Source: an uncultured Parabacteroides sp.
GTDB lineage: Bacteria > Bacteroidota > Bacteroidia > Bacteroidales > Tannerellaceae
Assembly (NCBI GenBank): GCA_944325345.1
Contig: CALUZV010000001.1
Location: 248,001 to 312,000 of the forward strand
Direction of reading: 5' to 3'
Length of the DNA stretch: 64,000 nucleotides
Under the pieces are notes generated by a model. It had not been told where the DNA came from and made no database searches. It saw only the letters and a program-made list of their open reading frames with translations. A program made the position numbers and the translations under genes. Below, piece by piece: positions 4,323 to 51,399 of this stretch. The stretch's first letter is position 1; the number at the start of each line of letters is the position of its first letter.

Positions 4323-4353
4323 GATTTTTACAGGTTTAAATAAAAACTTAATC

Positions 4354-4613
4354 GATTAAAGTCTCACTTTTAATAGTAAAAGGAAGAAATAAATTGCTTT
4401 ATTTCTCACTTTTGATATTAGATGTGCGAAATTAAGCAATTAATTTGATACTTCAATCATCAGAGTAGAAAATTAATGGATTAAAGTACTACTTTTAATA
4501 CCAAAAGTAAGAAATAAGTCGATTAATTTCTCATTCTTGATATTAAAAGTGAGAAATTAAGTGATTAAAATACTACTTTTAATAATAAATGAAGTACTTT
4601 AATTGATTTAAGT
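4354..4613. repeat. Array A1: tandem 42-bp units with dyads every 21 bp
   Basis: Unit starts at 4354, 4396, 4438, 4479, 4521, 4563 and 4605 (spacings 42, 42, 41, 42, 42, 42; the last copy is partial). Typical unit pieces are GATTAAAGTACTACTTTTAA and TACCAAAAGTAAGAAAT. Two dyads occur per unit: TTAATCGATTAA across the unit border and ACTTTTAATAnnAAAAGT in the middle, with centres about 21 bp apart. The units are contiguous with no spacers and drift by point changes. The array is very AT-rich, unlike the flanking genes, and ends 32 bp before DUF6261-like gene 1. Confidence 0.85.
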
Positions 4614-18672: not shown

Positions 18673-18938
18673 TTTGAGGAAGAAAAAATAGCGTCAATCG
18701 GGCTAAAATTTTTCCGGAAGCCCAAAAAACATCGTCAATAGTACTTACTATTTTCCGGAAGCCCGATTGACGATGTTTTTTCAGCTAAAATTTTTCCGGA
18801 AGTCCGATTGAGGCTGTTTTTGATACTTAAAAATTTCCGGAAGCCCAATCGACGATGTTTTTAGGGCTTACTATTTTCCGGAAATCCGATTGACGATAGA
18901 TTTTAGTGCTCGGAAATTTGCAGAAGCCCGGTTGAGCC
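18673..18938. repeat. Array A2: tandem 41-bp units with TTCCGGAA core
   Basis: Unit starts (at TTTCCGGAAG) fall at 18711, 18752, 18793, 18834, 18875 and 18917, i.e. spacings 41, 41, 41, 41, 42. A degenerate copy (TTTGAGGAAG) sits at 18673. Each unit carries TTCCGGAA, then a GCCCGATTGACGATG word and an AT-rich stretch. Spacers are absent. The second dyad is poorer than in the other arrays (AATAGTA-CT-TACTATT in the first unit only). It lies upstream of DUF6261-like gene 2; the downstream side faces the cupin gene. Confidence 0.85.
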
Positions 18939-23556: not shown

Positions 23557-23790
23557 TTCGTAGGGCTACGGGAGGCACTTGCACGGGTGAAAATAGTCTC
23601 CGTAGGCCTACGAAAGGCATTTGCAGGCTCGCGGTCGCCTCCGTAGGCCTACGGAAGCCACTTTCACGGTTGCAGATGGTCTCCGTAGGGCTACGGAAGT
23701 CATTTGCAAGCCTGCGGCCGTCGCCGTAGGGGTACGGAGGGTGGTTGCACGGGTGCAGGTGGGCGTCGTAGGGGTACGGAAAATAGTTTC
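23557..23790. repeat. Array A6: tandem 41-42-bp units with TCCGTAGGCCTACGGA
   Basis: Unit starts at 23557, 23599, 23640, 23682, 23723 and 23765 (spacings 42, 41, 42, 41, 42). The main dyad is TCCGTAGGCCTACGGA, perfect in the third unit and degraded in others. A second, GCACGGGTGC or GCAAGCCTGC, is centred 21 bp away. GC-rich, with no spacers. It sits directly upstream of the Crp-like gene and downstream of purN. Confidence 0.85.
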
Positions 23791-28812: not shown

Positions 28813-31647
28813 ATGAAACATATCTTTATCCCTAAGAAAGCTTGGCTTTGTCTGGCTTTGCTACTCTTTGCTTTTGTGCCATCCCTTTTTGCACAGCAGG
28901 AGATGCAGCCTCTTCCCATCGACCCGAATGTCCGCTACGGGAAGTTATCCAATGGTCTGACGTATTACATCCGTCATAATGAATTGCCCAAGGAACGGGC
29001 TGACTTTTACATCGCTCAGAATGTCGGCTCCATCCTCGAAGAAGAAAACCAGCGTGGTCTGGCGCATTTCCTGGAGCACATGGCGTTCAACGGCAGCAAA
29101 AACTTCCCCGAAAACGGGATGGACAAGTATTTACAGAGCGTCGGTATGCGTATGGGCGAGAACCTGAACGCTTATACCGGCTTCGACGAAACGGTCTATA
29201 CGATTATCAACGCCCCGGTCTCCCGTCAGGCCGTGGTCGATAGCTGCCTTTTGATTTTGCATGATTGGTCGAACTTCCTGGCCCTTACCGACTCGATGGT
29301 CGAGAAGGAACGTGGTATCATCCGCGAAGAATGGCGTACCCGTAGCGATGCCAGCTTCCGCATCATGGAGAAGCAGTTGGCTGAGATGATGCCAACCAGC
29401 CGCTATGCCCACCGGATGCCGATTGGCACGATTGAGGTGATTGACAATTTCAAACCTGATGAACTGCGGGCTTATTACCACAAGTGGTATCGTCCCGACC
29501 TGCAAGCCATCATCATCGTGGGCGATATTGATGTGGATTCCGTCGAGCAGACCGTCAAAACCATGTTTGCCGATATCCCTGCTCCGGTGAATCCTACTCC
29601 CCGCCCCTATTATCCCGTCGAGGACAATACGGAACCTATCGTTTCCATCATCACGGACAAAGAAGCCCCGAATATCATCCTCTATTTCTTCCACAAATAC
29701 GACCCGCTGTCCCCTGCCGAGCGTGCCAGCATCGTGGGTCTGGCCGACGATTATCTCTCTGCCGTATGCAGCCAGATGTTGAACGAACGCTTAGGGGCTT
29801 TGCTCCAGCGTGCCGACCCGCCTTTCGTCTATGCCGAGAGCTATAACGGACCTTTCCTGGTGGCGCGTACCAAGAATGCCTTCACGATGGCGGCTATCGC
29901 CCAAGAGGGGAAATTGGATTCGACGCTCAACACCTTGGTGCGCGAGACCGAGCGTGTCCGCCGCTTCGGTTTCACGGCTTCAGAGTATGAACGGGCACGG
30001 ATTTCGGTCTTGAAGCAATACGAATCGGCCTTTAACGAAAAGGACAAGCAGCGGAACGGCGCCTACACCCGCGAATATGTCAATCATTTCACCGAGGGCG
30101 GCTATATCCCCGGCATCGAGACCGAATACCGCCTGATCAGCCAGATTGCTCCCCAGATTCCTCTCGAGCAGGTGAATGCTTATATCTCTCAGCTAATCAA
30201 AAAGGAAAACCTCGTCATCGCCCTCAGCGGTCCCGAGAAGGAAGGTCTTTCCTATCCTTCGGAAGCCGCCTTGCTCGCTATGTACCAGCAGGCCGTGGCG
30301 CAACCCGTCGAGCCTTATCGCGAGGAAGTGAACAACGACCCGCTTATCCCTCATCTCCCTGCTCCGGGCGCGATTATTAAGGAAGAGAAAGACCCCATCT
30401 TCGGCGCTACCATCCTCAGCCTGAGCAACGGCGCCCGGGTCATCTTGAAACATACGGACTTGAAGAAAGACGAAATCCTGATGACCGCTACCAGTCCCGG
30501 CGGCAGCACGCTCTTTGGAAATAATGATGCAAAGAATCTGAAGGTCTTCAACTCCGTCATCGGCCTCGGTGGTTTGGGTGAGTTTTCCGCCATCGATTTG
30601 AGCAAGAAGCTGGCCGGAAAGAAGGTCGCCTGCTCCGCTTCGATGGGTCTGGACAACGAGAGCCTGAACGGTTATGCTTCGCCCGACGACATCCGTACCC
30701 TCTTCGAGCTGATGTACCTTGCCGTTACCAGCCCGCGTGCTGATTCCGAGGCTTACCAATCGTTCGAGACCCGCATGAAGGCCGACTTGGAAAACGCGCG
30801 GCTCGACCCCGCCGAGGCTTTCAGCGACAGCATCACGCGTGCCGTCTATGGCGACCATCCGCGTGCCTTGCCCCTCCGTGCCGAAGATTTCGGGCAGATT
30901 AGCTATCCGCGCATTCAGGAGATGTACCGCGACCGCTTCAGCGACGTTTCCGACTTCACATTCACCTTTGTCGGGAATCTTGATGTCGATAGCATCAAAC
31001 CGCTTGTCTGCCAATATCTGGCCTCTCTCCCCGGCGGTGGACGGCAGGAAACAGGCCGCGCCGAGGCTCTCCCCACCTACCGCAAGGGTACGCACGAGGT
31101 TTCTTTCGTCCGCCCCATGCAGACACCGAAGGCTTCTGTCTTCCAGTTCTATTCCACCGATACAGACTACACGCTGAAGAACCTGCTGACCGCCTCGCTC
31201 CTCAGCCAAGTGCTTGATTTGGTTTATACCGAGACCATCCGCGAGGCCGAGGGCGCCAGCTACGGTGTTTCCGCCGGCGCGTCGGTCGGCGCTTTCCCTC
31301 CGGGACAGACGTCGCTCTTGATTTCGTTTGATACCGATCCGGCAAAATGGCAGGATATGAGCCGCATCGTCGATGAGCAGCTTCGACGTATCGCGGAAGA
31401 GGGTCCCGACGCTTCGCACTTCTCGAAAAGCGTGGACAATATGCTGAAACGCCATACCGAGCAGCTTCAGGAAAACGGCTATTGGCTTAATGCCATCGAT
31501 ACCTATTATTTCCGCCACATCGACCTCAGCACCGACTACGAGGAGACGCTCCGCGCCCTCACGCCGGCCGACGTCCAGCACTTTGTCAGCCTTCTGCTTG
31601 ATAGCGGGAACCGGATAGAGGTGGTGATGATCGGAATTGGGGAATAG
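28813..31647 (+). CDS. M16-family zinc metallopeptidase (two-repeat, exported)
   Basis: A 944-residue protein with a signal peptide (LALLLFAFVPSLFAQ). The inverted zinc motif HFLEH sits at residues 85-89, and the third ligand Glu is about 77 residues on (EKERGIIREEW). The N-terminal half carries the active site. The C-terminal half (from about residue 510) repeats the fold without the motif, as in pitrilysin-type clamshell enzymes. It degrades peptides in the periplasm or at the surface. Monocistronic, with a promoter at 28777. An array with long G/C tracts lies just after the stop. Confidence 0.9.
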   Translation: MKHIFIPKKAWLCLALLLFAFVPSLFAQQEMQPLPIDPNVRYGKLSNGLTYYIRHNELPKERADFYIAQNVGSILEEENQRGLAHFLEHMAFNGSKNFPENGMDKYLQSVGMRMGENLNAYTGFDETVYTIINAPVSRQAVVDSCLLILHDWSNFLALTDSMVEKERGIIREEWRTRSDASFRIMEKQLAEMMPTSRYAHRMPIGTIEVIDNFKPDELRAYYHKWYRPDLQAIIIVGDIDVDSVEQTVKTMFADIPAPVNPTPRPYYPVEDNTEPIVSIITDKEAPNIILYFFHKYDPLSPAERASIVGLADDYLSAVCSQMLNERLGALLQRADPPFVYAESYNGPFLVARTKNAFTMAAIAQEGKLDSTLNTLVRETERVRRFGFTASEYERARISVLKQYESAFNEKDKQRNGAYTREYVNHFTEGGYIPGIETEYRLISQIAPQIPLEQVNAYISQLIKKENLVIALSGPEKEGLSYPSEAALLAMYQQAVAQPVEPYREEVNNDPLIPHLPAPGAIIKEEKDPIFGATILSLSNGARVILKHTDLKKDEILMTATSPGGSTLFGNNDAKNLKVFNSVIGLGGLGEFSAIDLSKKLAGKKVACSASMGLDNESLNGYASPDDIRTLFELMYLAVTSPRADSEAYQSFETRMKADLENARLDPAEAFSDSITRAVYGDHPRALPLRAEDFGQISYPRIQEMYRDRFSDVSDFTFTFVGNLDVDSIKPLVCQYLASLPGGGRQETGRAEALPTYRKGTHEVSFVRPMQTPKASVFQFYSTDTDYTLKNLLTASLLSQVLDLVYTETIREAEGASYGVSAGASVGAFPPGQTSLLISFDTDPAKWQDMSRIVDEQLRRIAEEGPDASHFSKSVDNMLKRHTEQLQENGYWLNAIDTYYFRHIDLSTDYEETLRALTPADVQHFVSLLLDSGNRIEVVMIGIGE

Positions 31648-31672: not shown

Positions 31673-31951
31673 CCGTTTACGAGCGTTTTTAGCCTTACCC
31701 CCCACCCCCCCCCTGAATCAAAAACGCTCGTAAACGGGCAAGGGGGGTGGGGGGTAACGCCGTTTACGAGCGTTTTTGGTCTTACCCCCCACCCCCCCCT
31801 GAGCCGAAAACGTCCGAAAACGGGCAAGGGGGGGGTGGGGGGTAAAGCCGTTTACGGGCGTTTTTGGTCTTACCCCCCACCCCCCTAAGCCAAAAACGCT
31901 CGAAAACGGGTAAAGGGGGGTGGGGGGTAAAGCTAAAAACGCCCGTAAATG
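31673..31951. repeat. Tandem nested-palindrome array with 87-88-bp units and long C/G tracts
   Basis: Units begin (CCGTTTACGAGCG) at 31673, 31760 and 31848, with a partial last arm to about 31951. Each holds an outer dyad, CCGTTTACGAGCGTTTTT paired with AAAAACGCTCGTAAACGG, around a run TTACCCCCCACCCCCC. The next stretch, GGGGGGTGGGGGGTAA, mirrors that run. Dyad centres in the first unit (31705 and 31726) are 21 bp apart. The G tracts could form G-quadruplexes on the plus strand. It lies between the converging M16 and TonB-receptor genes. The open frames crossing it code only for low-complexity peptides. Confidence 0.85.
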
Positions 31952-31979
31952 CTTTTTTGCTTCTATAAAAGTATCGAGT

Positions 31980-33878
31980 TTAAAACTTCAAGTTCACTCC
32001 GCCCATGAACGTCGCCTTGGGCATCGGGAATCCGGCATTGATTTCGTAACGCTGCGCCAGCAGGTTTTCCCCTTTGACCCAAAGCGAGAGCCAGTCGGTG
32101 AGGCGGTAAGAGCCGCGGACGTTCCAGAGGACGAAGTCTTCGGTCTTCGGCTTTTCGCCCACCTCGGTATAGAGGCCGCCGATATATTGGATGCCCGACG
32201 AGAGGTGCCACCGGCCCTTGGTATAGACCGCGCCGACGTAGAGCTTGTGCTCCGGCGAGGCGATGATGGGTGTATCCATGTGGAGGTAGCTGTAGTTGGC
32301 GTCGGCAGACCATGCCTCGTTGAAGCGGTAAGCGATTTGGCCCTCCACGCCGGCATTCTTGGCCTCGCCGGTGTTGAGGTTCATGCGGCGACCGTCTATC
32401 ATCCCGACCGTGATGAGGTTCTCGGCATCGATATAGAATACGTTTACGCCGTAGGAGAGGCGACCGTCGAGAAGTTTCTGAGAATAAGAAAGCTCGTAGT
32501 TCCACATCCGTTCGGCATCGAGGTCGGGATTCGCCACGCCCCACATGAACATCTCGCGGATGAGCGGGTAGCGGAAGCCTTTGCTCGCCGAGAGCTTGAT
32601 TTCTGCCTCTTTCGGGAGATGGAAAGAGAGACCGACCTGGGGAATCCATTCCGTCCCGACGTGCGAGTGGTGGTCGGCACGGACACCGGCATCGAACGTT
32701 AGCCATGAGCCGATATCCTGACGGAAATCGATGTAACCCGCAATCTCGTCCTGCGTCTCGTCGATGATGTCGGAGCGCTGGCCGCTCTGTGCCCCCGAAA
32801 TATATTCGTTCCAAGCCTCGCCCCCGAAGCGATACCAGTCGAAGCCCACGGTGAGGCGGTTGCCGGTGAAAAGCGTCGCACTCTGATACCACGAGAGGCC
32901 CATCATGTTGTCTTTGGAGTGGAAACGGTAGTCGAGCGGAGTCTCGCCCTGCGACGGAATGTAGCCGTCATCGACTTTATGCCGTCCCCAGTTGTAGAAG
33001 AAACTCAGCGCGCCGGAAGTGCGCTCGTAATGATTCTCGAGGGCGTAGGACGTCATGCCGCGCGTGATGCGCTGGTAGGCATCGACGAGGGGAGCGGAGA
33101 CAGTGCCGGGGTTCGAGGCGTTGAAGTGGGTGATGTTCACATCGCCCCAGAGCTTCCAGTTGTCGGAGAAGTCGTAGCCCAGTTTGGCATAGCCCCCGTA
33201 TTGTTCGAAGCCCAGATCGACGCGGTGGCCGTCCGTGCGGTTGTAGGAAGCCGTGAGGGTGCTGGAGAATTTGCCCTTCTTCACGCGGTTGGTGGCCTCA
33301 GACTGGAAGGTGCCGTAGGAGCCGGCACCGATATTGACCTCCGTCTTCACGCCATCTTCCTTCATCTTGCGGGTAACGATGTTTACCACGCCACCCATCG
33401 CGTTCGAACCGTAGAGGACTGAGGCCGGACCGCGCAAGACTTCGACGCGCTCGGCCATCATCGTCTGGTAGGCGTCGGAGATAGGATGTCCGAACAAACC
33501 CATATATTGCGGATGTCCGTCAATCAAAACCATCAGGCGACCCGAGCCGCCGCTCATGCCACGCAAGGAAATCCCACCGGCGGCACCGTCGGAGACTCCG
33601 AAACCCATCACGCCTCGCGAGGTGGTGAACAACCCGGGGATTTGCTCGGTCAGGATGGGGAGCAAGGAGGCTTCGTGCGTCTGCTCAATCTGCACGCGGT
33701 TTACGATAGAGACCGTCATCGGCAGATGCCGGATATCCGTCTCGTTGCGGGTGCCGGTAACGACCACTTCGTCCAGCGCATAATTCCGGGAAATGTTCGT
33801 GCTGTCTGTTTGCGCCTGTCCCGCGAGCGGGATGAAGGCGGAGGCCAGGAGGCCGAAGGCTACATTTTTTTTCGTCAT
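31980..33878 (-). CDS. TonB-dependent outer-membrane receptor
   Basis: A 632-residue receptor without the carboxypeptidase-like N-terminal domain of SusC proteins. Signal peptide FGLLASAFIPLAGQAQ, then the TonB-box-like ALDEVVVTGTRNET, the plug (residues about 45-160, with GGISLRGMSGGSGRLMVLID and VEVLRGPASVLYGSNAMGGV), and a 22-strand barrel ending in MGGVNLKF. Size and plug are like vitamin B12, haem or metal-chelate receptors. It lies 86 bp downstream of nikR on the same strand, so the ligand may be a metal chelate (inference). Confidence 0.92.
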   Translation of the reverse strand: MTKKNVAFGLLASAFIPLAGQAQTDSTNISRNYALDEVVVTGTRNETDIRHLPMTVSIVNRVQIEQTHEASLLPILTEQIPGLFTTSRGVMGFGVSDGAAGGISLRGMSGGSGRLMVLIDGHPQYMGLFGHPISDAYQTMMAERVEVLRGPASVLYGSNAMGGVVNIVTRKMKEDGVKTEVNIGAGSYGTFQSEATNRVKKGKFSSTLTASYNRTDGHRVDLGFEQYGGYAKLGYDFSDNWKLWGDVNITHFNASNPGTVSAPLVDAYQRITRGMTSYALENHYERTSGALSFFYNWGRHKVDDGYIPSQGETPLDYRFHSKDNMMGLSWYQSATLFTGNRLTVGFDWYRFGGEAWNEYISGAQSGQRSDIIDETQDEIAGYIDFRQDIGSWLTFDAGVRADHHSHVGTEWIPQVGLSFHLPKEAEIKLSASKGFRYPLIREMFMWGVANPDLDAERMWNYELSYSQKLLDGRLSYGVNVFYIDAENLITVGMIDGRRMNLNTGEAKNAGVEGQIAYRFNEAWSADANYSYLHMDTPIIASPEHKLYVGAVYTKGRWHLSSGIQYIGGLYTEVGEKPKTEDFVLWNVRGSYRLTDWLSLWVKGENLLAQRYEINAGFPMPKATFMGGVNLKF

Positions 33879-33964: not shown

Positions 33965-34366
33965 CTAATCCGCCCGGCTCATCACCAATTTCCCGTGTTT
34001 GATGCCCTTGATAGTCGTCATCCGGTCCGCCAGTTCCGTCAGCTTGTAGGCCATACCCATGACCGTAACGATATGCAGACAGAAATTATGGTTGATATAA
34101 TACTGCGAAGACGATAAGATAAGTTCCTGATGCTCGCGCTGTATATCCGCCAGCTTCGTCGCGATATCTTTCCGCGTCTGGTCGTACATGATAATCACCG
34201 TGCCCGCCACAATATGGTTGCACTGCCACTTCTCTTCCGCGATATTCTTTTCCACCAGGAAACGGATAGCCTGCGAGCGGTTGGCAAAGCCGTTATCGGT
34301 AACGTACTTGTCCAACGCCTCCAGCAAATTGTCTTCCAAGGATACACCAAATCGTTTTAATGCCAT
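33965..34366 (-). CDS. nikR: NikR-like ribbon-helix-helix regulator with altered metal site
   Basis: A 133-residue protein. The ribbon-helix-helix is LKRFGVSLEDNLLEALDKYV (residues 3-45). A C-terminal ACT-like domain contains AGTVIIMYDQTRKDIATKL, SQYYINHNFCLHIVTVMG. The C-terminal layout is that of NikR. Measured against E. coli NikR, however, the nickel ligands His87 and His89 fall on Gln and Tyr (SQYYINH), and His76 seems replaced by Arg. Only the Cys (Cys95 equivalent, NFCLH) is clearly kept. It may sense another metal or none. It is upstream of a TonB receptor on the same strand, and a TATCTTTG box lies 21 bases before its start. Confidence 0.8.
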   Translation of the reverse strand: MALKRFGVSLEDNLLEALDKYVTDNGFANRSQAIRFLVEKNIAEEKWQCNHIVAGTVIIMYDQTRKDIATKLADIQREHQELILSSSQYYINHNFCLHIVTVMGMAYKLTELADRMTTIKGIKHGKLVMSRAD

Positions 34367-35918: not shown

Positions 35919-36184
35919 GTTGCAAGCTGCAACGCTCCTCGCTACAGTGTAGCGAATAACTCTGCAAGCTGCAACGGCTCTCGCTACAGTGTAGCAAATA
36001 ACGTTGCAAGCTGCAACGGCTCTCGCTACAGTGTAGCAAACAACTCTGCAAGTTGCAACGGCTCTCGCTACAGTGTAGCAAACAACTCTGCAAGTTGCAA
36101 CGCTTCTCGCTACAGTGTTGCAAATAACTCTGCAAGCTGCAACAGTCCTCGCAACAGTGTTGCGAATCGCGTTGCAGCTTGCAC
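35919..36184. repeat. Array A4: six tandem 42-bp units plus partial, two dyads 21 bp apart
   Basis: Units start at exact 42-bp steps: 35919, 35961, 36003, 36045, 36087, 36129, and a partial at 36171. Dyad 1 is GTTGCAAGCTGCAAC (centre at unit position 8). Dyad 2 is GCTACAGTGTAGC (centre at 29), so centres are 21 bp apart and 21 bp from the next unit. Arms co-vary in places (GCAACAGTGTTGC in the last unit), as expected if symmetry matters. It lies between converging fucosidase and lpdA genes. Confidence 0.9.
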
Positions 36185-45227: not shown

Positions 45228-45437
45228 CGTGCAAGCTGCAACGCAATCGTGAACTGCGGTTCACGAGCCTGTTGCAGCTGAAAAGTAATCATGAACTGCG
45301 GTTCACAAGTCCGTTGCAACTGAAAAGTGATTGTGAACTGCAGTTCACGAGTCCGTTGCAGCTGAAAAGTGATTGTGAACTGCGGTTCACGAGTCCGTTG
45401 CAACTGAAAAGTAATCGTGAACGCCGGTTCACGACAA
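45228..45437. repeat. Array A5: five tandem 42-bp units with GTGAACTGCAGTTCAC dyad
   Basis: Units start at 45228, 45270, 45312, 45354 and 45396, exact 42-bp steps. Dyad 1 is GTGAACTGCAGTTCAC (centre 29.5). Dyad 2 is CAGCTG or CAACTG (centre 8.5), again 21 bp apart. The array ends in AACTTTTCAACTTGCAGCG, just before the stop codon of prfB, so it is in the 3' untranslated region of that gene. Confidence 0.9.
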
Positions 45438-45454
45438 CTTTTCAACTTGCAGCG

Positions 45455-47822: not shown

Positions 47823-50171
47823 ATGAAGTATTTTGTACTTATCTTCTTGTTTTTAGTTCCTTTTTATACAAAAGGGCAGATGTTAGTGGAAAGGTTCGAT
47901 GATTCCTCCTTGGCAACGGAATGGGAGCTCCATCGCAACCAGTTTGAAATCAAAGACGGCGTTTTGTGGCTCAATGGAAATTCGGAGGCGGCTGATACCT
48001 CTTCCATCCGTCGGCTTTATACCCCGGCGGAGACGATGCAATGGACGTTCGACGTCTATCTCGATGTCAATCCTACCTCGCAGAACAAAGTCGTCATCTA
48101 TCCTGCCTATTCAGACTACAGTTCCCAGTATGTTTATCTTGTCATTGGCGGGACAAAGAACAAAGATTTATTCCTTTATCGCAACGGAAAGAAGAAACTC
48201 ATCGATGCCGAGCGCGAACTCCCCTACCCCGACGGCTTCCCCTGCGTCCTCTCCATCAAACTCACTTACGAAGCGGGCCTTTGGACCTTATATTCTTCTT
48301 TCGACAAGGAAAACTATACCGAGGAAGGCTCGGCGGAATACGAGATGGATAATCCGGAGGGCGAGGATGTCTATTTCCACCTCCAAATGGAATATACCAA
48401 GACGCGCAACCAAGCTTTCGGCTTCGACAACCTCGTCATTACGGATTACTTGACGGAGATGCCTGTCGAACCCGAGGAACCCGATTATTCCCCCGTCTCC
48501 CTCGAGTCCATCGACTTCCCCGACCACTCCTCCGTCCTCCTCTCCTTCTCCGACCCTGTCGATTGCTCCTTCGCTTCGGTCTCCCTCTCCGAAATCGGCA
48601 TGGCTTCGGATATCGACGATAGCGACGAGCAAAATATCTTAGTCTCTTTCGACGGGGAGATGGCGGCGGAGCATGAATATACCTTATATATTGAGGGTTT
48701 TGCCGACGAAGACGGTCTGGAAATCCCCGCCGAGGAGCTGACTTTTGTCTTGGAAAAAGAGGAACCGGAGGAAGATGTGGACGATGAAGATGACGAGGAC
48801 GAGGATGCCCCCGACTCCCTCCCCGCCGGCTCCGTCTATATCTCTGAAATCATGGCCGACCCCAAGGGCGCGTCCCGTATGCCCGACACGGAGTATATCG
48901 AGCTGCACAATACCCTCTCCCGCGCCGTTTCCCTGGACGGATGGACCTTGGTTTATCGCGAAAGCGTCTCCGTCCCGCTCGACGGGGCAAGGATTCCGGC
49001 CGACTCTTACCTTATTCTATATCGCACGGGCGATGATATGCTTTCCGACTTGGAAGACCGGGCTTTCGCCTCCGAAAAGTTCCCTGCTAACCTCGCGAAC
49101 TCGGGGAATCGCGTGCAGCTGCTCGATGCCTCCGGCGCGTCGGTGGACGATGTTACCTACGACAAGGCTAAATCTGGCATCTCCTGGGAGCGCACGGCCG
49201 AGGGCTGGTCTCTTTCTTCCGACCCGCAGGGCGGTACACCGGGTGCGCCCAACTCCTCGCCTCTCCCCGATGATGAAAAGGAGGAGGACGACGAAGAGGA
49301 GGATAACGAGGATGAAGAACAGCCGCAACCCGCCGTCCCCAACGTCGAACCCCGCGCCATCGTCATCAACGAGCTCCTCCCCGACCCCGCCCGTGGCGGC
49401 AGCGAGTATATCGAGCTTTACAACCGCTCCGACGAGCCTCTCCCCCTCCGTGGCCTGGCCATCGCGACGCGCAAACAGACCGGCGAACTGGCGAAAAACT
49501 ACCCGCTCAGCTCGCTCGCCGGGTCGCTGGAGGCTGGTGCCTACCTCGCGCTCACGAAAGACCGCGAAGGTGTCCTTGGTTTCTATTCCGTGGCGGACGA
49601 GGACTGTGTCGCCGAGCTTCAGCTCCCCATCCTGAACAACGACGGGGCGACACTCGTCCTTTTCAACGCCTCGGATTCGAGCGTGGTGGACGAAGTGCCC
49701 TATTCCCCCGACTGGCATTCGCCTTTGCTGGACGATGAGAAGGGGGTTGCCCTCGAGCGCATCGACCCGGATGCCGATTCCGACGATGCTGCCAACTGGA
49801 CTTCCGCCGCTGCTGCCTCCGACTTCGGTACGCCGGGTGCCGAAAATTCGCAATACCTCCGCGTGGACGATGCGCCGCTGACGGGCCTCGAGAAGCCGAC
49901 GTATTCGCCCGTGGATGGGACTTACCGCTTCCCCTACCACCTCGCGCGGGCTGGTTTCGAGGGGAATATCCGCATCTTCGACCTTGCGGGACGTGAAGTC
50001 GCCCTTGTCGCCCGCCAGCAACTCCTCGCCACTTCCGGCGAACTCGTTTGGGACGGAAAAGGCAGCGACGGGACTACCCTCCCCGCCGGTCTCTATGTCG
50101 TTTTTGCAGAATTTATCCACCCCAAGGGAGAAGTTTATCGGGAGAAAGCTGTGGTGCTGGTGAGAAATTGA
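47823..50171 (+). CDS. Large exported protein with two lamin-tail domains and a FlgD-like C-terminal domain
   Basis: A 782-residue protein. Signal peptide MKYFVLIFLFLVPFYTKG, then a concanavalin-like domain (to about 210) and an Ig-like stretch. The first lamin-tail domain (about 340-475) contains VYISEIMADPKGA and EYIELHNTLSRAVSLDGWTL. The second (about 510-660) contains RAIVINELLPDPARGGSEYI. The C-terminal beta domain IRIFDLAGREVAL...LPAGLYVVFAE resembles FlgD-type or type IX secretion-associated tails. Highly acidic linkers (DVDDEDDEDEDAPD; EEDDEEEDNEDEEQ) separate the domains and may bind calcium. It is likely a surface or secreted structural protein; function unknown. Confidence 0.8.
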   Translation: MKYFVLIFLFLVPFYTKGQMLVERFDDSSLATEWELHRNQFEIKDGVLWLNGNSEAADTSSIRRLYTPAETMQWTFDVYLDVNPTSQNKVVIYPAYSDYSSQYVYLVIGGTKNKDLFLYRNGKKKLIDAERELPYPDGFPCVLSIKLTYEAGLWTLYSSFDKENYTEEGSAEYEMDNPEGEDVYFHLQMEYTKTRNQAFGFDNLVITDYLTEMPVEPEEPDYSPVSLESIDFPDHSSVLLSFSDPVDCSFASVSLSEIGMASDIDDSDEQNILVSFDGEMAAEHEYTLYIEGFADEDGLEIPAEELTFVLEKEEPEEDVDDEDDEDEDAPDSLPAGSVYISEIMADPKGASRMPDTEYIELHNTLSRAVSLDGWTLVYRESVSVPLDGARIPADSYLILYRTGDDMLSDLEDRAFASEKFPANLANSGNRVQLLDASGASVDDVTYDKAKSGISWERTAEGWSLSSDPQGGTPGAPNSSPLPDDEKEEDDEEEDNEDEEQPQPAVPNVEPRAIVINELLPDPARGGSEYIELYNRSDEPLPLRGLAIATRKQTGELAKNYPLSSLAGSLEAGAYLALTKDREGVLGFYSVADEDCVAELQLPILNNDGATLVLFNASDSSVVDEVPYSPDWHSPLLDDEKGVALERIDPDADSDDAANWTSAAAASDFGTPGAENSQYLRVDDAPLTGLEKPTYSPVDGTYRFPYHLARAGFEGNIRIFDLAGREVALVARQQLLATSGELVWDGKGSDGTTLPAGLYVVFAEFIHPKGEVYREKAVVLVRN

Positions 50172-50257
50172 AAATGGACAATAAAAAATTGACAATTGAC
50201 AATTAAATGTTTACGAGCATAAAATTGTCAATTGTCAATTCTCCATTGTCAATTGAT
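50172..50257. repeat. Dispersed ATTGTCAATT inverted repeat
   Basis: AAAATTGACAATTGACAATT and, about 30 bases on, AAATTGTCAATTGTCAATTC, plus CCATTGTCAATTGATG, form a loose inverted structure between the converging lamin-tail and DUF6261-like genes. Same word family as 7064-7126 and 14963-15027. Confidence 0.65.
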
Positions 50258-51090: not shown

Positions 51091-51217
51091 AGTTTCTTAC
51101 ATTTTAATAATTAATTATACATTCATTTACCTGTTGATGCCCTTCAGGGAGCATCGCCGTAAAAATACGATAAAGTTTTGATACAACAAGGCTTCAAGGG
51201 GAGAATTTTTTTTGATG

Positions 51218-51399
51218 TTCTCGAACATGGAGGCGTTGAGGGCCCTCAAAGGCGTTTTGTTCGAGAACATAGAGGCTTTGAGGAGCCTCAACGGCATCAT
51301 GTTCGAGAACATAGAGGTTTCGAGGAGCCTCAAAAGCGTTTTGTTCTCGAACATGGAGGTTTCGAGGGGCCTCAATGGCGTCATGTTCGAGAACATGGG
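51218..51399. repeat. Array A3: four tandem 42-bp units plus partial, dyads 21 bp apart
   Basis: Units start at 51218, 51260, 51302, 51344 and 51386 (exact 42-bp steps). Dyad 1 is TGTTCGAGAACA (centre 4.5 in the unit). Dyad 2 is TTGAGGAGCCTCAA (centre 25.5), so dyads repeat every 21 bp. The centre of dyad 1 flips between GA and TC in different units while the arms stay constant. The array lies upstream of DUF6261-like gene 3 and abuts a MITE-like element. Confidence 0.9.

Follow-up and report, generated by a model that had tools for sequence, protein, structure and literature searches.

The window, by which we mean the whole stretch of 64,000 nucleotides that was analysed, corresponds to positions 248001-312000 of a contig, the largest of 44, in the 3.27-Mb draft genome of a member of the Bacteroidales. 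A repeat array takes up most of the 332-bp gap between two convergent genes, a setting given in the initial annotation and borne out by the gene calls, in which the M16 peptidase gene ends at 31647 and the TonB-dependent receptor gene has its stop at 31980. Genes for a NikR-type regulator and an alpha-L-fucosidase lie further on, past the convergent pair. The gene for the NikR-type nickel-responsive regulator (window 33968-34366) adjoins that for the TonB-dependent receptor, which suggests a nickel or related metal uptake locus. The features of the locus, as delimited by the sequence, Tandem Repeats Finder (TRF) and a dyad map for the array as a whole, are the following.

28813-31647, + strand: M16 peptidase, upstream convergent gene
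31673-31951, no strand: whole array, 13 alternating elements of about 21 bp
31673-31692, + strand: element 1, X (CCGTTTACGAGCGTTTTTAG)
31693-31717, + strand: element 2, C tract (CCTTACCCCCCACCCCCCCCC)
31718-31737, - strand: element 3, X' (X reverse-complemented), paired with element 1 at 18/18 positions
31738-31759, - strand: element 4, G tract (reverse complement of the C tract)
31760-31779, + strand: element 5, X, 19/19 pairs with element 3
31780-31803, + strand: element 6, C tract
31804-31823, - strand: element 7, X', the most diverged copy
31824-31847, - strand: element 8, G tract (G8TG6), which with GGG at 31822-31824 forms the only canonical G-quadruplex motif
31848-31867, + strand: element 9, X
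31868-31889, + strand: element 10, C tract
31890-31909, - strand: element 11, X'
31910-31932, - strand: element 12, G tract
31933-31951, - strand: element 13, X', which breaks the alternation and pairs with element 1
31953-31958, + strand: T6 run directly past the end-to-end hairpin, which would be terminator-like for the + strand gene only
31980-33878, - strand: TonB-dependent receptor, opposite convergent gene

The array is real, and its 13 elements follow one another in the order X C X' G X C X' G X C X' G X'. Here X stands for CCGTTTACGAGCGTTTTTGG and C for a TTACCCCCCACCCCCC tract, with X' and G denoting the respective reverse complements. The nested palindromes that the initial annotation had described are present: the 18-bp sequence CCGTTTACGAGCGTTTTT (31673-31690) is perfectly complementary to 31720-31737 across 29 intervening nucleotides, successive copies of X start 87 and 88 bp apart, and G6-8TG6 tracts and their complements alternate along the array. 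The same description divided the array into three units, which is correct for the elements that it named but missed the thirteenth, whose orientation is out of line with the alternation. With TRF, the array is reported at a period of 86, with 3.0 copies and a score of 388. Because an element and the next but one are reverse complements of each other, the primary period is doubled to 86; each C or G tract therefore forms the loop of a hairpin between X and X', and each X that of a hairpin between C and G. Since element 13 pairs with element 1, the ends of the array are 35-bp inverted repeats that are 94% complementary. The whole array is predicted to fold end to end as one hairpin, with energies of -186 to -190 kcal/mol for the two strands. 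This lies far outside chance expectation, with z about -12 (RNA of both strands, and DNA) and none of 100 shuffled sequences folding as well.

Ten dyad centres, from 31705 to 31900, are spaced 21-22.5 bp apart, which agrees with the 21-bp spacing noted earlier, and it is for this reason that the link then drawn to the 42-bp class is right. Its kinship with the 42-bp arrays of the window is thus supported. The array has a constant, strand-neutral step of about 43 bp (86 bp when only direct copies are counted) and dyads at every 21-22.5 bp. Its direct similarity at lag 42 is only 0.19, its outer-dyad pairing (0.90) is the extreme of the sample, and within the first 850 kb it is the only array that combines sub-chance similarity at lag 42 with near-perfect outer dyads. 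On the + strand, the C tracts are alike in their flanks (GTCTTA...TGAGCC), and so are the G tracts (GGCTTTA...TTGCCC after reverse complementation), which suggests, as far as can be read from the sequence, that the 86-bp unit was tandemly duplicated once the alternation existed.

When the genome was searched for further copies of the unit, as had been proposed, target-related units were found at two other loci, C4:83.75-83.98 kb and C8:48.72-48.81 kb. In the first of these, the order is X C X' G X C X' C X' C and the step stays at 43 bp throughout, and this mixture of orientations at a constant step therefore indicates that single elements change their orientation while the ruler holds. We read the 86-bp period of the target accordingly, as that of a 43-bp array whose elements happen to alternate. 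A single decayed copy of an ordinary transposon end, the possibility that the initial annotation had set against its own description, is probably not what lies at this locus: the only two relatives in the genome are partial and are themselves arrays, and no transposase gene was called beside the target array. L052:18721-19100 is a chimeric locus, where one C/G-tract unit with a relationship to the target is joined to an 83-bp array of unrelated sequence.

Outside this genome, the target DNA had no match among 37 other genomes of the genus. Judged by the M16 gene, the nearest named relative is an uncultured Parabacteroides (77% protein identity), and the gap 3' of the M16 gene in other species of the genus contains a simple hairpin or unrelated DNA, with no array. 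In the orthologous gap of one relative (L058:2083-2160), the hairpin is a simple bidirectional terminator, AAAAAGGCACCGTAAATACA...TGTATTTACGATGCCTTTTTT. The relatives, with at most 67% identity in the M16 C-terminal region, are too distant for dating the array by orthologous gaps. The class itself does occur elsewhere in the genus, with 41-42-bp arrays in the genomes G003, G009, G019 and G024 and with 20-24-bp arrays in most of the sampled species, one of which has 4 in 100 kb.

In the window, the distance between successive arrays of the class is 4.0 to 14 kb. The arrays other than the target, none of which is assigned to a strand, are the following.

4344-4584: array of 42 bp
18683-18905: array of 41 bp
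23559-23781: array of 41-42 / 83 bp
35921-36184: array of 42 bp
45234-45451: array of 42 bp
51215-51398: array of 42 / 84 bp

Near the last of these, at 50165-50255, there are AT-rich short-period repeats (7, 14 and 21 bp), possibly a young or a decayed array.

The class was surveyed with TRF over 1.97 Mb (60%) of this one draft genome, which is probably a short-read assembly and may therefore have compressed unit counts. The survey detected 269 tandem arrays, as against 1 when the same 1.97 Mb was block-shuffled, and 245 of the 269 lie outside genes called with our own hexamer-based caller; scaled from the scanned part, the whole genome would hold about 400. The base period is 20-24 bp in 81 of the noncoding arrays, 40-43 bp in 157 and 83-86 bp in 3, so that 241 of the 245 belong to these three ranges and 4 have other periods. 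Strong dyads number 279, compared with 36 after shuffling, and their spacings cluster at 10-12, 20-23, 31-32, 41-42, 62-63 and 82-84 bp, which are multiples of about 10.5 bp; no strong dyad was found in 56 of 239 arrays (44 of 157 arrays of 40-43 bp and 12 of 82 shorter ones). By sequence, the 245 arrays fall into 91 groups, 48 of them singletons, and 197 arrays share sequence with another array. Neighbouring units are more alike than distant ones (0.82 vs 0.70), as expected for growth by tandem duplication, and a test for decay of the terminal units in the arrays was not significant (p = 0.11). A rule by which the same palindrome stands at both ends of an array was rejected, as only about one quarter to one third of the arrays align end to end with their own reverse complement and the boundaries are too fuzzy. 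Phased bending was likewise rejected as the basis of the class, the 10.5-bp GC periodicity being in mild excess in 42-bp arrays and in no excess in 21-23-bp arrays. In this class, units keep to a length of about two helical turns (20-24 bp) or four (40-43 bp), whereas their sequence is free; geometry is conserved, sequence is not, and there is no strand or gene polarity. The target is very probably an orientation-alternating member of this genome-wide intergenic satellite class.

Several other repeated elements were observed in the course of the survey. A dispersed element of near-constant length (about 82 bp), composed of four 21-bp palindromes AAAACTAAGNCTTAGTTTTT, is present at 23 loci, including L016:10896-10977 and L036-L043, and at many of these loci there are 23-bp repeats on either side, with the form AAACTT...CTGCCGAGG. 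It is located in divergent gaps in 14 of 23 cases, in same-direction gaps in 9 and in convergent gaps in 0, thus departing from the neutrality of the class, and it has the appearance of an independent regulatory or mobile unit. Another repeated element, at L024:15500-15740 and L158:2230-2400, has C-rich/G-rich inverted ends (CCCCTTCGCAGGGGAAGAGTTCAG ... CTCTTCCCCTAAGTTAGGGGAAG) and a variable middle with ACTATC/GATAGT palindromes, and is MITE-like. A family of 40-bp arrays has four copies, all in convergent gaps (L016:3690-3841, L018:3046-3277, L047:2957-3189 and C6:17027-17214 (L121)); three of the copies have common flanks and differ in unit number (about 4 to 6), which is evidence of the expansion or contraction of whole units.

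The arrays avoid each other. When arrays were placed randomly in eligible gaps of this draft genome, 66 pairs (sd 6.8) were expected at distances of 0.6-3 kb, and none of 500 randomisations gave fewer than 46, while 10 pairs were observed. The same deficit was found between unrelated sequence families (9 vs 63 expected) and between the 21- and 42-bp classes (5 vs 30 expected), and it was present in both halves of the data and at every detection or score threshold. Arrays that lack dyads exclude too, perhaps more weakly (5 vs 18.6 expected). For divergent and convergent gaps only, there were 2 pairs at 0.6-3 kb against 11.5 expected (P = 5e-4), and 11 against 12.6 at 3-6 kb. Second-order gaps are also depleted, with 1 of 35 within 3 kb, and exclusion is therefore a matter of distance and not of adjacent gaps. 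The results for second-order gaps and for strictly divergent or convergent gaps rule out one array per transcription unit as the cause. Arrays in the same gap form an exception, 12 spacings being shorter than 500 bp. At distances above 4 kb, the arrays seem to be placed at random with no upper limit of spacing evident, as given by exclusion plus random placement. In this genome, exclusion thus does not depend on sequence and extends over about 3 kb.

The closest known kind of repeat is the constant-size, variable-sequence satellite, and the target array falls within its definition. Such satellites are recognised as puzzling and, to our knowledge, no function has been established for them. The abstract of the J Bacteriol 2020 paper of Subirana and Messeguer is said to contain a 22/44-nt statement. 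In the available passages of their other articles, these authors report tandem repeats of bacteria whose size is constant while the sequence varies, of 20-21 and 52 nt in Bacillus (PMC8161180, PMC6749651) and of 20-23 nt in many groups, with a few of 40-41 nt related to those of 20-23 nt (PMC8161180). They noted the correspondence to two turns of the helix, and raised a polymerising protein or small RNAs as possibilities (PMC8161180). The arrays studied here resemble these satellites in having a unit of about two helical turns, or double that, across unrelated sequences (241/245), in comprising, within a single genome, many sequence families with a common unit length (245 arrays in 91 groups), and in being mostly noncoding (245/269). 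They differ in that 41-42 bp is the dominant length, units contain phased dyads, the target alternates in orientation, and arrays exclude each other over about 3 kb. As far as the searched passages of these articles go, the string "palindrom" is absent from PMC8161180 and is used for CRISPR only in PMC6749651, and PMC8161180 makes no mention of spacing or distance between arrays. Dyads, orientation flipping and exclusion were not found in the searched passages of PMC8161180 and PMC6749651.

Two other systems are similar in part. BIMEs consist of one or a few REP sequences genome-wide. The BIME/REP elements of enterobacteria are arrays that lie between genes and are built of palindromes whose orientation alternates, separated by two spacers in turn, which is the X C X' G layout. 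In contrast to them, approximately 91 sequence groups were found here with no gene-end bias, and the target unit, instead of being shared by many loci, is present at only two others and in 0 of 37 other genomes of the genus. BIME-2 elements bind gyrase (PMC6379681). The BrickBuilt MITE of Porphyromonas gingivalis (PMC4596501), from the same order, is also intergenic and has internal 23-nt tandem repeats of variable number; in the passages searched, however, it is a single sequence family with a leader and a tail, in 19 copies, with no 42-bp units and with no dyads mentioned (PMC4596501). For the target, the BLAST matches to the sister loci span the array only, with no common flank seen, and the period is 86, not 23.

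Since inversion of elements in place leaves the ruler unchanged, the constraint is geometric, and since arrays of unrelated sequence exclude each other over about 3 kb, they behave as one system whose range is close to that over which supercoiling is felt. It has been reported that supercoiling couples competing sites across kilobases, with longer inverted repeats winning, and that transcription-driven superhelicity travels 1.5-2.5 kb in eukaryotes (PMC3834812), and that the BIME-2 arrays of E. coli are gyrase sites and gyrase prefers a 10.75-bp GC periodicity (PMC6379681). We propose that the class consists of intergenic satellites with a unit length set by helical turns, of which the target is an alternating member, and that they act topologically as duplex DNA; we give this joint reading a probability of about 0.4. 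Arrays may grow by tandem duplication of whole units, and single elements may be inverted in place via recombination between the flanking inverted repeats. The array would then act as duplex DNA rather than as an RNA or gene-end signal, and could locally absorb negative supercoiling or provide a docking site for it, either by extruding cruciforms or by phased wrapping by gyrase or a nucleoid protein. Sites in one superhelical domain would compete, with long inverted repeats winning, and one array might relieve or occupy the surrounding 2-3 kb, so that a second array nearby would be idle and lost, or would never grow. Extrusion alone is not the whole story, because some arrays without dyads also show exclusion. 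Two observations count against a topological function, namely that the 21-23-bp arrays have no 10.5-bp GC excess, and that the spacing, being exclusion plus randomness, also fits an insertion-immunity model. In its favour are the mild 10.5-bp GC excess of the 42-bp arrays and the lack of any gene-orientation bias or wobble asymmetry in the class. Such a function is put forward tentatively.

Alternatively, the arrays could be dispersed non-autonomous mobile repeats of a MITE- or REP-like kind, in which target immunity blocks new insertions within about 3 kb and slippage and drift expand the units, with no host function needed. The sharing of sequence among 197 of 245 arrays (91 groups, 48 singletons), the 23-member family of near-constant 82 bp, the 40-bp family with common flanks and variable unit number, and the spacing by exclusion and randomness with no upper limit are all in line with this. 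However, exclusion crosses unrelated families and period classes, whereas target immunity is normally specific to an element; a fixed helical period across unrelated sequences would be left unexplained; and no target-site duplication was identified in the arrays. We therefore consider mobile repeats a somewhat unlikely explanation.

A sequence-tolerant DNA-binding protein that polymerises on two-turn arrays, spreads over 1-2 kb and organises the nucleoid, with exclusion reflecting the spread, is unlikely to account for the class, as no candidate protein has been identified and such a protein would need to ignore sequence and yet prefer arrays. It would nevertheless agree with a constant unit length and a free sequence, for which a protein of this kind was proposed by Subirana and Messeguer in the available text (PMC8161180), with the exclusion shown by dyad-less arrays, and with the many dyads, which suit a dimeric binder.

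The initial annotation had viewed the array as a gene-end device that could block transcription or replication, and this was not upheld for the class. Among gaps with at least 60 bp of other DNA, arrays are present in 42 of 139 convergent (30%), 49 of 158 divergent (31%) and 133 of 456 same-direction gaps (29%; p = 0.90), and the 42-bp arrays alone are distributed over 36 convergent, 32 divergent and 86 same-direction gaps (p = 0.20). T-runs at array ends showed no orientation with the transcription of the upstream gene across the class. Mismatches in sense-strand hairpins of same-direction gaps were G-U in 337 cases and A-C in 303 (array-level sign test, p = 0.21); selection at the RNA level should favour G-U, and no such preference is seen. 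An early wobble signal on 850 kb (G-U 172 vs 129, p = 0.015) vanished with the larger set, and a nominal opposite skew in the convergent set (p = 0.02-0.04), for which the strand is arbitrary, was taken as noise. Gap context, T-run orientation and the wobble test together rule out a terminator or gene-end role for the class. Rfam matches at E below 1 were all under gathering scores, and were microRNA-type chance matches to perfect hairpins.

At the target locus itself, the array might be considered a terminator acting in both directions, or a hairpin that stabilises the 3' ends of the convergent M16 and TonB-receptor transcripts, given the convergent setting, the strength of the predicted end-to-end hairpin on both strands, the T6 immediately past it on the + strand (31953), and the ordinary hairpins that relatives have just 3' of the M16 gene. 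Against this, the - strand has no T-run after the hairpin, the class lacks a preference for gene ends, oriented T-runs or a wobble preference, and a simple terminator scan returned none, with the qualification that its loop limit of 3-8 nt excludes a structure of this shape. Such a role is improbable as an account of the array, while the hairpin and the T6 run (31953-31958) could still terminate M16 transcripts at this locus alone.

The tracts had also been called G-quadruplex-capable, and the G6-8TG6 tracts are indeed present. There is one canonical motif only, on the + strand, and every G tract is flanked on both sides, approximately 24-31 nt away, by a complementary C tract with one of which it is paired in all predicted folds. 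The G4Hunter extreme of the target is 2.56, which places it among 20 clusters above 2 in 1.97 Mb, as are both sister loci. Most arrays of the class have no G tracts. Formation of a G-quadruplex is possible at the target, but is not a feature of the class, and the tracts are treated as a local compositional trait. That the array is a G-quadruplex or i-motif element stalling polymerases is very improbable, in spite of the G6TG6 tracts and the G4Hunter scores of target and sister loci, because the motif is single, perfect C:G partners beside each tract win in every fold, and most of the class is without it.

Returning to the reading of the arrays as topologically acting duplex DNA, the keeping of the ruler and the mutual exclusion are the two results that narrow the possibilities for the function of these satellites. 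It is conceivable, if doubtful, that satellites unrelated in sequence work together as a single functional system. DNA geometry alone would then set a comb of topological or protein-docking sites, with some 3 kb of chromosome under the control of each; the information would be carried by position and helical period and not by sequence, and two-turn elements could flip with no loss of function. The mutual avoidance over about 3 kb hints at a hidden rule of chromosome organisation. If it is true in cultured Parabacteroides, the arrays would allow local topological domains, or the action of a new nucleoid protein, to be read directly from the genome.
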